Part shown: piece by piece, positions 55,869 to 59,991 of the stretch
Position numbering within the stretch: position 1 is the stretch's first letter
How the letters are laid out: the number at the start of each line of letters is the position of its first letter
From: Pseudomonas sp. LS.1a
GTDB lineage: Bacteria; Pseudomonadota; Gammaproteobacteria; Pseudomonadales; Pseudomonadaceae
Direction of reading: 5' to 3'
Assembly: GCF_022533585.1 (NCBI RefSeq)
Contig: NZ_CP092827.1
Coordinates: forward strand, 1,218,001 to 1,282,000
Length of the DNA stretch: 64,000 nucleotides
The notes under the pieces: model-generated
The model's database searches: none
What the model was told of the DNA's origin: nothing
What the model saw: only the letters and a program-made list of their open reading frames with translations
Translations under genes and position numbers: made by a program

Positions 55869-57035
55869 ATGAGTGGATTCTTCCACGGCGTCACCGTAAC
55901 AAACGTCGACACCGGCGCTCGCAGCATCGTGCTGCCTTCCTCTTCGATCATCGGTCTGGTCGACACCTTCACCGAGGGCGCCGACGCCACGGCCAAGGCC
56001 AACGACCTGGTGCTGATCACCAGCGAGCGTGAAGCGGTCGCCGCCTTCGGCGAAAACGCGGCCATCACCAAGGCCTGCCGCGCCATCTACACCCGCGCCA
56101 AGGCGGTCATCGTCGCCTGCGGCGTGGCCAAGCTGGACGATGCAGCGGAGCAGACCGCCGCGATCATCGGCACGGTGCAGGCCGACGGCAAACGCACCGG
56201 CCTGCAGGCGCTGCTCGACGGCAAGAGCCGTTTCAACGCCCAGCCACGCCTGCTGGCTGCCCCGCGGCACAGCGCTACCCAGGCGGTGGGCACGGCACTG
56301 GTGGCCCTGGCCGACAAGCTGCGCGGCATCGCCATCATCGACGGCCCCAACACCACCGACCAGGCGGCTATCGACTACGCGAAGAACTTCGGCGCCAAAC
56401 GCGCCTTCCTGGTCGACCCGGGCGTGCAGTACTGGGACAACGGCGAGGAAGCCACCGTCGATGCACCCGGTTCGGCCTGGGTCGCCGGCCTGTTCGCCTG
56501 GACCGATCGCGAATACGGTTTCTGGGCCTCGCCCTCGAACAAGGAATTCGTCGGCATCACCGGCACCACTCGCCCGGTGGAGTTTCTCGATGGCGATGAC
56601 AGCTGCCGCGCCAACCTGCTGAACAACGCCAACATCGCCACCATCATCCGCGATGACGGCTTCCGCCTGTGGGGCAACCGCACCCTGTCGAGCGACCCGA
56701 AATGGGCGTTCGTCACCCGCGTACGGACCATGGACATCGTCATGGACGCGATCCTCTACGGCCACAAGTGGGCCGTCGACCGCGCCATCACCGCCACCTA
56801 CGTCAAGGACGTCACCGAGGGCCTGCAGGCCTTCATGCGTGACCTGAAGAACCAGGGCGCGATCATCAATTTCGAGGTCTTCGCCGACCCGGAGCTGAAC
56901 ACCGCCAGCCAGCTCGAGCAGGGCAAGGTGTACTGGAACATTCGTTTCACCGACGTGCCGCCTGCCGAAAACCCCAATTTCCGTGTCGAAGTCACCAACC
57001 AGTGGCTGACCGAAGTCCTCGATTCCGCCGCTTAA
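55869..57035 (+). CDS. Tail sheath protein FI
   Basis: 388-residue contractile sheath subunit. The P2 FI-type N-terminus GFFHGVTVTNVDTGARSI is followed by VLPSSSIIGLVDTF, FLVDPGVQYWD, the central VAGLFAWTDREYGFWASPSN and the C-terminal PNFRVEVTNQWLTEVLDSAA used for arm exchange between rings. The presence of a sheath shows a contractile (R-type) particle. It is followed 13 bases later by the tube gene. Confidence 0.95.
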   Translation: MSGFFHGVTVTNVDTGARSIVLPSSSIIGLVDTFTEGADATAKANDLVLITSEREAVAAFGENAAITKACRAIYTRAKAVIVACGVAKLDDAAEQTAAIIGTVQADGKRTGLQALLDGKSRFNAQPRLLAAPRHSATQAVGTALVALADKLRGIAIIDGPNTTDQAAIDYAKNFGAKRAFLVDPGVQYWDNGEEATVDAPGSAWVAGLFAWTDREYGFWASPSNKEFVGITGTTRPVEFLDGDDSCRANLLNNANIATIIRDDGFRLWGNRTLSSDPKWAFVTRVRTMDIVMDAILYGHKWAVDRAITATYVKDVTEGLQAFMRDLKNQGAIINFEVFADPELNTASQLEQGKVYWNIRFTDVPPAENPNFRVEVTNQWLTEVLDSAA

Positions 57036-57048
57036 GGAGCGCATTTAC

Positions 57049-57558
57049 ATGGCAATGATTCCCGAAACCCTGGCCAACCTGAACCTGTTCGTCGATGGCG
57101 TCAGCTTCCAGGGTGATGTACCTAGCCTGACCCTGCCCAAACTCACCCTGAAGATGGAGGAACACCGCCCCGGCGGCATGGACATGCCGGTCGAAATGGA
57201 CCTGGGCATGGAAAAGCAGGAAGCGGCCTTCACCACCACCGGTGTGCGCCGCGAAGCGCTGAAGTTCTTCGGCCTGGCCGACGGCAGTGGCTTCAACGGT
57301 ACGTTCCGCGGCGCCTTCAAGGGCCTCAAGGGCAAGATCAACCCGGTAGTGGTGACCCTGCGTGGCACGCTCAAGGAAATCGACATGGGTGACTGGAAGT
57401 CCGGTGACAAGGCCGAGATCAAGCACAGCGTCGGCCTGACCTACTACAAGCTCGAAGTCGATGGCCGCCTGATCTATGAAATCGACGCGCTGGGCATGAA
57501 GCGCGTGATCGATGGCGTCGACCAGTTGGCTGCCCAGCGTGCCGCGCTCGGCTTGTAA
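57049..57558 (+). CDS. Tail tube protein FII
   Basis: 169-residue tube subunit of the P2 FII family. Start MAMIPETLANLNLFVDGVSF and segments KLTLKMEEHRPGGMDMPVEM, GAFKGLKGKINPVVVTLRG and KHSVGLTYYKLEVDG are typical. It is closely followed by the tail assembly chaperone E. Confidence 0.95.
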   Translation: MAMIPETLANLNLFVDGVSFQGDVPSLTLPKLTLKMEEHRPGGMDMPVEMDLGMEKQEAAFTTTGVRREALKFFGLADGSGFNGTFRGAFKGLKGKINPVVVTLRGTLKEIDMGDWKSGDKAEIKHSVGLTYYKLEVDGRLIYEIDALGMKRVIDGVDQLAAQRAALGL

Positions 57559-57568
57559 GGAGATGACC

Positions 57569-57871
57569 ATGGCTCAAGTGAAGAAGCAGCCTCAATGGCT
57601 GACCCTGAGCGCCGATCGCGTCACCGTGCGCCTGTCGCGCCCCAGCGAAGCAAATGGTGTTCAGGTCGACAGCCTGTCGCTGCGGGCACCGACCGTGCGG
57701 GACATCCGCAACGCCCATGCCGGGGGTGTGGATGATGACGAGCAGCGCGAACTGAACCTGTTCGCGTCGCTGGCCGAGGTTGGCATCAAGGACCTCGAAG
57801 GCCTGGCCCTGAAGGACTATAGCCGTCTGCAAAGCGGTTATTTTCGCCTGGTGCAGGACGACGAACTTTGA
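57569..57871 (+). CDS. Tail assembly chaperone E
   Basis: 100-residue protein of the phage tail assembly chaperone (gpE/E') system, encoded between tube and tape measure. It begins MAQVKKQPQWLTLSADRVTV; ATG 57569 is chosen because AAGGAG ends right at the other ATG (57563). The product ends QDDEL and the stop TGA is part of a shift-prone CTT TGA C, so this is the short form of a frameshift pair. Confidence 0.88.
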   Translation: MAQVKKQPQWLTLSADRVTVRLSRPSEANGVQVDSLSLRAPTVRDIRNAHAGGVDDDEQRELNLFASLAEVGIKDLEGLALKDYSRLQSGYFRLVQDDEL

Positions 57872-57983
57872 CCCGGGCCGGCAAAAGGCCGCCGCTCGGC
57901 GGCTGGCCAAGGAGCTGAATTTTTCTGCGAGCGAGATCATGACCATGTCGTACAGCGACATGGTCTGGTGGCTCGCCCCGTGA
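57569..57983 (+). CDS. E-E' fusion by +1 frameshift (predicted)
   Basis: Reading CTT, skipping the T and continuing GAC CCG... from 57870 adds 37 codons to E, giving about 137 residues. The extension includes KAAARRLAKELNFSASEIM and ends MSYSDMVWWLAP, the sequence type of the E' part in this family. The shift site 57866-57872 is CTT TGA C, identical to the E. coli prfB +1 site. In P2 and lambda the same pair is made by -1 frameshifting. AGGA is 7 bases upstream, farther than in prfB. Frameshifting is inferred, not measured. Confidence 0.7.
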
Positions 57984-57996
57984 CAAGGAGGAACCT

Positions 57997-59991
57997 ATGG
58001 CGAACACAGAGGTGTTCTCGCTCGGGCTCGGCGTCACCGTCATGAACCCTGTGGGCCAGGCCATCGAACTGCTGCGCCGGGACGTCGAACGCCTGCGCCG
58101 GCAGGCTGACGGCACCCGGCTTGGCCGGCTCATCGGCGAAGTGATCCGGCTGGGGTTGGAGCTCGGCAAAGTACGTCAGGTCGAACGCCAGCTGGCGCTG
58201 GACCAGGAACAGCAAGAGGAAGGGCCCATCGCCGGGTTGGGCGATGAGGCCGATGCCGTTGAGCGTTTACGCCAGCATTACCTGATGCTGGACCAGGTGA
58301 TTGCCGGGCTGGCGCAGCTCAAGCCGCTGCAGGGCCAGATGACGGTCAATGTCTTTCAGCAGTGGCACTCGGTCGTGCAGGGGCCAGTGGGACCCGGCAA
58401 GCTGCAAGCGCCTGCGCAGGCCCTCGCGCAGGCTCCCGGGCAGGCACCCGGCACGGATGCAGGTGACGACTCGGGCAACCTCGGCAAGGCCCTCGCGATG
58501 GCCGCCGGGGGTGGTGGGGTTGCTATCGCTGGCGTCATGCGCAAGCTGCCGCCGGAACGACAGCGTGCGATACGCGAGCGTGTTTCGAAGGAGTGGCGGG
58601 ACAACCGTGTCGAAACCTTCGGCAAGCTGGCCAAGGTGCTAATCAGCGCTGAGGACGGCGAAGAAAGGGCACGCGGCGTCGGCGCTGCAGTCGGCGAAAT
58701 CGGCGGTCGCGTGCTGGGCGCGATGGCACCTCTGCTGTTCAAAGGCAAAGGTAAAGCGATAGGCAGAACCTCGAGCACAGGTACAAGCAGAGGGAAACGT
58801 CAGAGCAGACGTGAAAGCCGGCGCAAGGCTCAAATCAAGGCGCAAAAAGAAGCTGCACGGAAGCAGAATGCTCAACAGGCGGCAGAGCAGAAGGAGGAAG
58901 AGACCGCGCAAGAGCAGTGGGCCAGGTTTGGCGGCCAGGTGGGCGAGGCTGCGGGTGATCAGGTCGGCGGTGCGCTGTTCAACTGGTTTGCGCAGGAGGA
59001 TGAGCCCACGCCACACAGCAAAGGAACGCCTTTGGCGGCCGAGGCGCAAGCTGCTTCCGAGAGGGGGGCTTCGCTACCTTTGATCGCCACAGGCAGGCAG
59101 CTGCCATTGGCAGGAACGCTGTTCAAGCGCGCGCCACTGACGGCAGTGCTGGATACCTCGCTGCAGGTGGCCGATATCTACCAGGGCGACGCCACGCCCG
59201 AAGAGAAGCTGGAAGGCTATGGCGAGGCTTTAGGCGGGCTGGGTGGCAGCTTGGCCGGCTCTTCGGCCGGATGGCTCGGTGGCGCGGCAGCCGGTGCCAT
59301 GATCGGTTCGGTGGTGCCCGGTTTAGGAACAGTGATCGGCGGCGCCATCGGCGGCCTGCTGGGGAGCCTGGGTGGTGGTTATCTGGGCGGCATGGGCGGT
59401 GAATTCGTCGGCGGCGCGTTAGGCAAGGCTGTGGCATCCGTGGCCGGCTCCGATGCGCCAGGGATGAGCAAGGGCGTTACCGGCTCCCCTGACCAGACAG
59501 CCCGATTGCAGAAAAATGTCAGCACTCCGGCAGCGTTGACTGCGACTTCGAGCGCGCAACGGGTCGGCAGCTTGGCCGGTTCATCGGTCGGTGGGCTCGG
59601 TGGTGCGGCAGCGGGCGCCATGATCGGTTCGGTGATACCGGGTATGGGAACAGTGATTGGGGGCGCGTCAGGCAAGTCCCTGGCATTCGTCTCCGGCTTC
59701 GATGCGACTGGGGCGAGCCAGGACGTTGCCGGTTTCCCCGACCAGGCAAGCCGATTGCAGAAAAGCGTCACGCCTGCACCGCCAGCTATTTCGACACCGC
59801 CATCACCGGCTGTGGCTACGCCCTCCATCAACCAGCAATTCACCTTCACCGCCAACATGCCGGTGACCTTCAACAACAGTTTCGATGACCCGACCACCCT
59901 GCAACAACTGGAAGCCATCGCCCGGCGCGTGCTCGACGACTTGATGCGTCAGGCGCGCGCGGTGCAGATGGTCGATCAACCACAGCCATGA
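57997..59991 (+). CDS. Tail tape measure protein
   Basis: 664-residue protein whose length should set the tail length. It starts MANTEVFSLGLGVTVMNPVG, with a charged helical N-terminal part, then an Ala/Gln/Lys/Glu-rich coiled-coil around residues 250-310, then Gly/Ala-rich hydrophobic segments. A duplicated block (GSLAGSS..GGAAAGAMIGSV..PG.GTVIGGA) occurs 107 codons apart (59245 and 59566). The C-terminus has FTANMPVTFNNSFDDPTTLQ. Position after E/E' fits. Confidence 0.88.
   Translation: MANTEVFSLGLGVTVMNPVGQAIELLRRDVERLRRQADGTRLGRLIGEVIRLGLELGKVRQVERQLALDQEQQEEGPIAGLGDEADAVERLRQHYLMLDQVIAGLAQLKPLQGQMTVNVFQQWHSVVQGPVGPGKLQAPAQALAQAPGQAPGTDAGDDSGNLGKALAMAAGGGGVAIAGVMRKLPPERQRAIRERVSKEWRDNRVETFGKLAKVLISAEDGEERARGVGAAVGEIGGRVLGAMAPLLFKGKGKAIGRTSSTGTSRGKRQSRRESRRKAQIKAQKEAARKQNAQQAAEQKEEETAQEQWARFGGQVGEAAGDQVGGALFNWFAQEDEPTPHSKGTPLAAEAQAASERGASLPLIATGRQLPLAGTLFKRAPLTAVLDTSLQVADIYQGDATPEEKLEGYGEALGGLGGSLAGSSAGWLGGAAAGAMIGSVVPGLGTVIGGAIGGLLGSLGGGYLGGMGGEFVGGALGKAVASVAGSDAPGMSKGVTGSPDQTARLQKNVSTPAALTATSSAQRVGSLAGSSVGGLGGAAAGAMIGSVIPGMGTVIGGASGKSLAFVSGFDATGASQDVAGFPDQASRLQKSVTPAPPAISTPPSPAVATPSINQQFTFTANMPVTFNNSFDDPTTLQQLEAIARRVLDDLMRQARAVQMVDQPQP

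Follow-up and report, generated by a model that had tools for sequence, protein, structure and literature searches.

A conserved TTT_C site points to +1 recoding of the tail assembly chaperone gene in Pseudomonas tailocins

The tail assembly chaperone gene of a Pseudomonas tailocin, gene E, is probably recoded by a slip of tRNA-Phe from UUU to UUC, which would carry ribosomes into the +1 frame and leave the following codons read in both frames; from sequence comparison we put the probability of this reading at about 0.78. The proposed shift site, TAT_TTT_CGC, lies at 57839..57847 on the forward strand of the window, that is, of the whole 64,000-nucleotide stretch of Pseudomonas sp. LS.1a that was analysed, and the slip would lead from TTT (57842-57844) to TTC (57843-57845). 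Three observations carry this reading: an invariant TTT_C, a dual-coding signature and a constant length of the downstream extension, E'. An earlier sequence-only reading had proposed a prfB-like shifty stop at the end of E. Its joining of E to E' by a +1 shift has stood, but the slip at CTT_TGA that it described, with dependence on release factor 2 (RF2), has not.

Results and discussion

A tail chaperone gene in an R-type tailocin

Gene E (57569..57871, forward strand, as are all features below; stop TGA at 57869-57871) encodes a tail assembly chaperone of 100 aa, with matches to PF10109 (Phage_TAC_7, E-value 1e-20) and phrog_166. It lies between the genes for the tail tube (57049..57558; PF04985, E-value 1e-58), itself preceded by the tail sheath gene (55869..57035; PF04984/PF17482), and for a probable tape measure protein (57997..59991; phrog_794, 7.5e-20), which has the Shine-Dalgarno (SD) sequence AAGGAGG at 57985-57991 and for which the Pfam search gave no significant match. 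Baseplate, fibre, gpU and gpD genes, an S24 repressor and a GH19 enzyme were also matched in the neighbourhood, and no head gene was found among the window ORFs searched, which are a subset of all ORFs. The element is flanked by genes that we take, by recognition of their translations, to be mutS and cinA/recA. Judged by this content, P2-like tail genes with a repressor and a lysis enzyme at the mutS-cinA/recA position, the element is an R-type tailocin. Part of PMC2647930 describes a P2-like element at the same spot in P. fluorescens SBW25.

The end of E reads GAA CTT TGA CCC (57863-57874), the E frame closing with LVQDDEL and the stop. The heptamer CTTTGAC is present at 57866-57872 (CTT 57866-57868, TGA 57869-57871, C 57872), preceded by an AGGA (57855-57858) 7 nt before CTT, and the +1 frame continues for 37 codons (57870-57980) that read DPGRQKAAARRLAKELNFSASEIMTMSYSDMVWWLAP and end in MSYSDMVWWLAP, followed by the stop TGA at 57981-57983; the heptamer, the 37-codon continuation and the AGGA had been noted from the letters and proved accurate. 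The heptamer is common genome-wide (198 forward and 182 reverse occurrences) and by itself unremarkable. Openness of the +1 frame is likewise uninformative as regards chance, being expected at 0.963 given E; the frame is not fortuitous because it is open and conserved as protein in all 92 Pseudomonas loci first examined. A chaperone gene followed by a conserved out-of-frame extension just before the tape measure gene, as found here, is what characterises a frameshifted tail chaperone.

E' lies in the +1 frame in Pseudomonas and mostly in -1 elsewhere

Frameshifts in tail assembly chaperone genes are a classic example of conserved recoding, mostly in the -1 direction. The earlier claim that E is joined to E' by a shift to +1, unlike the -1 shifts of P2 and lambda, was borne out among relatives. 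Of 298 genomes of the genus that were searched, 92 contain E (126 match rows), and E' is in +1 in 92 of the 92 loci examined first, so that a P2- or lambda-like -1 shift on a slippery run does not describe them; the E' protein is strongly conserved in these loci up to a Trp-Trp end. Sixteen remaining places in the genus were examined later, and 14 agree, with TTT_C and a +1 E'. L339, a weak match (E-value 7e-4) whose E is 30% identical, carries TTT_CAA followed by an E'-like reading in +1 with a single Trp, so the signal may predate the tailocin clade. L340, a weak and divergent match from the same genus (E-value 1e-3), ends GGT TTT TTC, and its E'-like reading looks -1.

Among viral contigs, 79 of the 80 loci (the best 80 of 591 viral relatives) are in +1 and one ends inside E'. 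The tailed phages give another picture: in the seven inspected (Mica, Murka, ep3, Persinger, KA2-1, Mano and MQ-4; 8 of the 31 phage records with a match were examined) E' is in -1, and in Mica and Mano the annotation includes a joined frameshift product of a length that agrees with -1. Loci outside the family (L117-L145) were judged by eye, L125 and L130 giving no E match. For 23 of them, from other genera of the order and class, the E'-like reading is in -1 in 21 and in +1 in L127, and L121 gave no clear frame call. Since relatives outside the family are mostly -1, we regard -1 as the common state, from which the Pseudomonas family differs; on these comparisons the +1 direction is real and unusual.

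Two single records deserve mention in their own right. L127, from another genus of the order, reads TTT TTT CGT CAT TAA with its E'-like sequence in +1, perhaps through an independent switch. The E/E' locus L282 is of Pseudomonas-like type and comes from a record titled Pantoea sp. Cy-639, which may be a mistaken title or a sign that the element was transferred.

TTT_C is invariant and opens a dual-coded stretch

An in-frame TTT_C (57842-57845 in the window), 24 nt upstream of CTTTGAC, is present in all 175 +1 loci, each of which also has the +1 frame open from this TTT to Trp-Trp. Because the 175 loci were picked for a +1 E' ending in Trp-Trp, irrespective of TTT_C, the count is a true test. 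So is the corresponding one for clusters, where Phe is TTT in 81 of 81, against 29 of the 87 Phe codons elsewhere in E (Fisher P = 1.8e-23, a nominal value since the clusters are related). Further loci were collected once the TTT_C site had been proposed. A scan of genome contigs found TTT_C in 80 of 80 loci (the best 80 of 162 relatives), 42 of them new; its pattern asked for Tyr-Phe-Arg-Leu in the E protein, so that it was neutral between TTT and TTC, though loci lacking this Phe may have escaped it. In a neighbouring genus, which includes R-pyocin-like loci, TTT_C occurs in 17 of 19 loci. The exceptions, L243 and L244, are two copies from one genome with the same sequence over the stretch examined; no frame gives an E' in them, and the aligned Phe codon is TTC, followed by ATG.

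The 272 TTT_C loci (175 + 80 + 17, with 38 repeats among the 80) represent 215 distinct sequence windows and 107 clusters at 90%; L112, L116 and L131 were left out as repeats, and L166, which has TTT_C, because its contig ends inside E'. TTT_C is present in all 107 clusters by construction, and the other counts made on them are results. The codon after TTT is CGC in 81 clusters, CGT in 22, CTG in three and CGA in one. The codon before it is TAT in 82 of 107, and where Tyr stands at this place it is written TAT in 61 of 78 clusters, versus 15 of 84 codons elsewhere. The distance from Phe to the Trp-Trp of E' is 41 residues in 104 clusters and 40 in the other three, whereas the E stop varies from 21 to 69 nt after TTT. 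A constant length beside a wandering stop fits translation of the E' frame from TTT, and not a slip at the E stop. Counted from the proposed shift, the E' extension of the window has 45 codons and the stop TGA at 57981-57983 (57846..57983).

Synonymous variation changes abruptly at the same codon. In the 68 clusters whose E stop lies 27 nt after TTT, its ratio to expectation in E is 0.93, 0.94, 0.99 and 0.87 in four upstream blocks, then 0.00 at TTT, 0.51 and then 0.37 across the six codons that follow, 0.83 at GAR and 0.25 at NTT. Synonymous pair differences at the Phe codon number 0, against 1012 expected, and the codons upstream are nearly free. The drop covers the dual-coded stretch of the window (57845..57869), where E reads RLVQDDEL (57845-57868) and the E' frame AWCRTTNF (57846-57869), so that an in-frame UUU_C stands at the start of the overlap, as in signals of the influenza PA-X kind. 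This evidence should be read with the caveat that dual coding and a conserved RNA element leave partly similar signatures, and +1-frame changes are more conservative than random ones by a small margin only (mean BLOSUM62 1.38 versus 0.79).

Proposed mechanism

How would UUU_C act? Most ribosomes would translate E and terminate at the TGA at 57869. In a minority, peptidyl-tRNA-Phe on UUU (57842-57844), with CGC waiting in the A site, would slip by +1 and re-pair with UUC, to which its GAA anticodon is better suited, and translation would then run on as A-W-C-R-T-T-N-F-D-P... into E'. A 137-aa E+E' would be made alongside the 100-aa E, giving a long and a short chaperone. In tailed phages, such a pair assembles the tube around the tape measure. 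We infer from the conservation described above that the shift takes place, at some rate, and that the fusion acts as a chaperone. By anticodon reading, only two codons in the open +1 stretch of the window allow P-site re-pairing, TTT (to TTC) and CTT (to TTT). The fusion would have 137 aa with either, differing at residues 93-100, which would be AWCRTTNF after a slip at UUU_C and RLVQDDEL after one at CTT_TGA.

The UAU so often found ahead of UUU may be of help; PMC3498833 discusses how the E site affects +1 shifting, and UAU also precedes the prfB slip codon (PMC13245932, in the part concerned with that site). With CGC the most used Arg codon here, there is no obvious reason for the A site to be slow. 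SD-like motifs 4-16 nt ahead of TTT occur in 9 of 107 clusters, and the 60-nt stretch downstream folds no better than shuffled sequences (mean z -0.11; n = 27 of the 107 clusters); with SD-like motifs rare and structure lacking nearby, shift efficiency could be very low. The chaperone shift of phage Mu is given as -2 in a passage of PMC3498833. A -2 shift at TTT was set aside here, judging from codon pairing, as tRNA-Phe would face AUU.

When 129 nt downstream are folded, the same comparison gives z = -2.25 (n = 27 of 107 clusters), a signal that probably comes from a distant hairpin in E'. There, the inverted repeat GACCATGTCG-TACAG-CGACATGGTC (57941..57965) forms a perfect 10-bp stem with a 5-nt loop, beginning about 97 nt past the proposed shift and ending about 30 nt before the ATG of the tape measure gene. 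Pairing is kept in 98.5% of cells in 20 distinct rows, with compensatory changes in relatives and a covariation of 0.122 versus 0.046 in shuffled alignments (0/500), and 8.11 of the 10 pairs are retained on average over 81 clusters. By this covariation, 57941-57965 is a conserved RNA hairpin.

The shifty-stop motif is not conserved

Conservation of CTTTGAC across tailocins, a check that the sequence-only reading had itself named, went against a slip at this site. CTT_TGA ends E in 33 of the 92 genus loci; the rest have GTT_TGA (14), CTG_TAA (11), GTT_TAA (10), CTT_TAA (7), GTT_TAG (3), GAT_TAA (3) or other combinations (11). In the 107 clusters, which were built from TTT_C loci, an NTT-stop is found in 78 and absent from 29. 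GTT replaces CTT in many loci, and re-pairing there would take a first-position mismatch. The dependence on RF2 fares no better, as the stop is not fixed (TGA 57, TAA 19 and TAG 2 among the 78 NTT-stop clusters). Many relatives have AAGA where the window has AGGA, and none of these 78 clusters (0 of 78) has a prfB-like SD at the spacing seen in prfB. By the relevant part of a prfB survey (PMC12421855), the slippery sequence and SD of prfB are nearly invariant and every stop is RF2-readable; the tailocin loci have neither a conserved CTT_TGA_C, nor an AGGGGG-like SD 3 nt upstream, nor a stop that is always RF2-readable. The comparison is fair, since prfB of the host carries the canonical CGGGGGTATCTTTGAC. 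All CUU-stop +1 entries in RECODE are prfB, according to a statement in a 2024 tool paper (PMC10885494).

Some relatives act as natural tests. In L256 (a single sequence) E stops at a TAG directly before GTT TGA, so that in-frame ribosomes cannot reach the motif, and E' is intact. In L045, L050, L055 and L057 a sense codon (CAA, CAC or CAG) follows CTT instead of TGA, and the Phe of E' is kept as TTC. These loci retain E' without a usable CTT_TGA, and the only invariant re-pairable site is TTT_C. In 18 of 18 printed ORFs with tandem E, the first copy has Ser, Ala or Thr for Phe, and TTT_CG occurs only in the last copy, before E'. A separate mechanism for the E' lineages that have CTG TAA and lack an ATG is moot, because TTT_C is present in them too. 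With the motif, the stop identity and the SD all unconserved, and E' kept where the motif is lost, we rejected the prfB-like shifty stop as the main site.

The tandem loci (L066, L068-L071, L073, L074, L325-L334 and L337) have E doubled in one open frame of about 200-253 aa, a double chaperone ahead of a +1 E'. Two further E/E' copies in the genome that holds the window, L002 and L003 (G000:C1:2726765 and 3688835), are 60% identical and have TTT_CTG, CTG TAA and an ATG in the E' frame.

Why, then, does the end of E resemble prfB? What reads GAA CTT TGA C in the E frame is AAC TTT GAC, or Asn-Phe-Asp, in the E' frame. The Phe-Asp of E' (TTT GAC) puts a TGA into the E frame, which is why E ends there, and the prfB-like look arises because these codons overlap the E stop. 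We conclude from this overlap that CTTTGAC (57866..57872), the site first proposed, is a by-product of E' encoding Phe-Asp. The loci with CTG TAA have Cys-Asn for Phe-Asp in the E' frame, and here too the E stop falls out of the E' codons. NTT begins with what is the third base of an E' codon, and this base is mostly C or G (CTT 42 and GTT 24 of 81 clusters), as GC-rich third positions would lead one to expect. TGA is followed by C or T, Asp being encoded by GAC or GAT. The E'-frame Phe at the end of E is nearly always TTT, far above the use of TTT for Phe elsewhere, and it is possible that a stop there is favoured by selection, or that slipping at CTT_TGA adds something. With the slip placed at UUU_C, the link between CTTTGAC and release factors is probably a coincidence.

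Alternative readings

A main slip at the stop codon would have peptidyl-tRNA-Leu move from CUU to UUU while UGA awaits RF2, as in prfB, joining L100 to D101. The exact CTTTGAC of the window speaks for it, and so does the prfB site of the host: such a site works in P. fluorescens SBW25, where, in the experiments reported in part of PMC13245932, changing CUU to CUA lowered the shift more than spoiling the SD. An NTT-stop is found in 70 of the 92 genus loci, in 37 of 78 clusters NTT has a loose SD-like motif 4-16 nt upstream, and Leu before Asp-Pro would align, by eye, with Leu before Ser-Pro of the -1 relatives. We nevertheless consider this reading unlikely, given the NTT-stop missing from many clusters, the TAA and TAG stops, the common GTT, the lack of prfB-like SDs and the survival of E' in L256 and the L045-type loci; it also leaves unexplained the invariant TTT_C and the synonymous suppression that starts there.

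The two sites might instead work in tandem, a constitutive slip at UUU_C being supplemented by an RF2-sensitive one at CTT_TGA to give two 137-aa fusions that differ in residues 93-100. That TTT and CTT are the only re-pairable codons of the open stretch, and that TTT is over-used at the end of E, would agree with this, but the second site is often lost in relatives, and we hold tandem use to be a shade less likely again. It is also conceivable that no fusion is formed and that E' is a small protein of its own, started by re-initiation or internal initiation. Loci of the L002, L045, L072 and L081 types do have an E'-frame ATG close to the junction; in the window, however, this frame has no ATG, GTG or TTG from -56 to +70 relative to the E stop, well inside E', and TTT_C would be left unexplained, which makes separate synthesis highly improbable. 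A slip at UUU_C is the reading that we retain.

Comparison with known recoding signals

The P2 E/E+E' and lambda G/GT pairs likewise have a C-terminal extension in an overlapping frame with the shift near the end of E, and P2 also has a PF10109-type E between its tube and tape measure genes. P2 and lambda shift by -1, P2 on a T run (passages of PMC5009743 and PMC3931495), whereas the shift proposed here is +1 on UUU_C. The prfB shift is also +1 and shares with the window CTTTGAC and the UAU before its slip codon; it differs in that the tailocin loci have no AGGGGG SD at 3 nt, no fixed stop and no conserved motif, and their invariant site is elsewhere. Influenza A PA-X (UCC_UUU_CGU) slips from UUU to UUC while CGY occupies the A site, as proposed here, and, in the parts of PMC3498833 and PMC5009743 that describe it, likewise has no evident stimulator and an overlapping downstream frame. 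Gene and host are unrelated, and for PA-X the site and direction on UUU_CGU were given by mass spectrometry, a P-site slip on UUU_C being favoured (PMC3498833, in the section on this signal), whereas here they come from sequence comparison.

According to the tail gene passages of a 2016 review (PMC5009743), tail assembly shifts are -1, with that of the haloarchaeal myovirus HSTV-2 probably +1. HSTV-2, by that account, and the Listeria phage PSA also have +1 shifts in tail genes, but that of PSA is at CCC_UGA in the tail shaft gene, not a chaperone, and HSTV-2 is likened here by the description in the review. Our literature search (tailocin/pyocin, shifty stop and tail chaperone frameshift), which covered few subscription papers, turned up no description of the site, which does not establish priority.

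Conclusions

On balance we favour the view that chaperone recoding in the Pseudomonas family, once a -1 shift on a T run, became a +1 shift on UUU_CGY with little change of position within E, and that the +1 signal also operates in the R-pyocins of the P. aeruginosa group. L093 and L226-L241, which we read as R-pyocin-like by their likeness to a P. aeruginosa record, have E' in +1 from TTT_CGC. In one record, OQ658366, only E is annotated, with nothing annotated between E and the next tail gene; E' is possibly a missing protein in well-studied tailocins. The case also counsels caution, since overlapping codons can generate a prfB-like heptamer. If our reading is true, the influenza PA-X signal would have in this locus a natural counterpart from bacteria, one that operates with neither a stop codon nor a Shine-Dalgarno sequence nor nearby structure, and the locus family would be a natural data set on a +1 signal reduced to its minimum. 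A large bacterial lineage with +1 shifting at UUU_C would show that the direction of the shift can flip while the fusion is kept.
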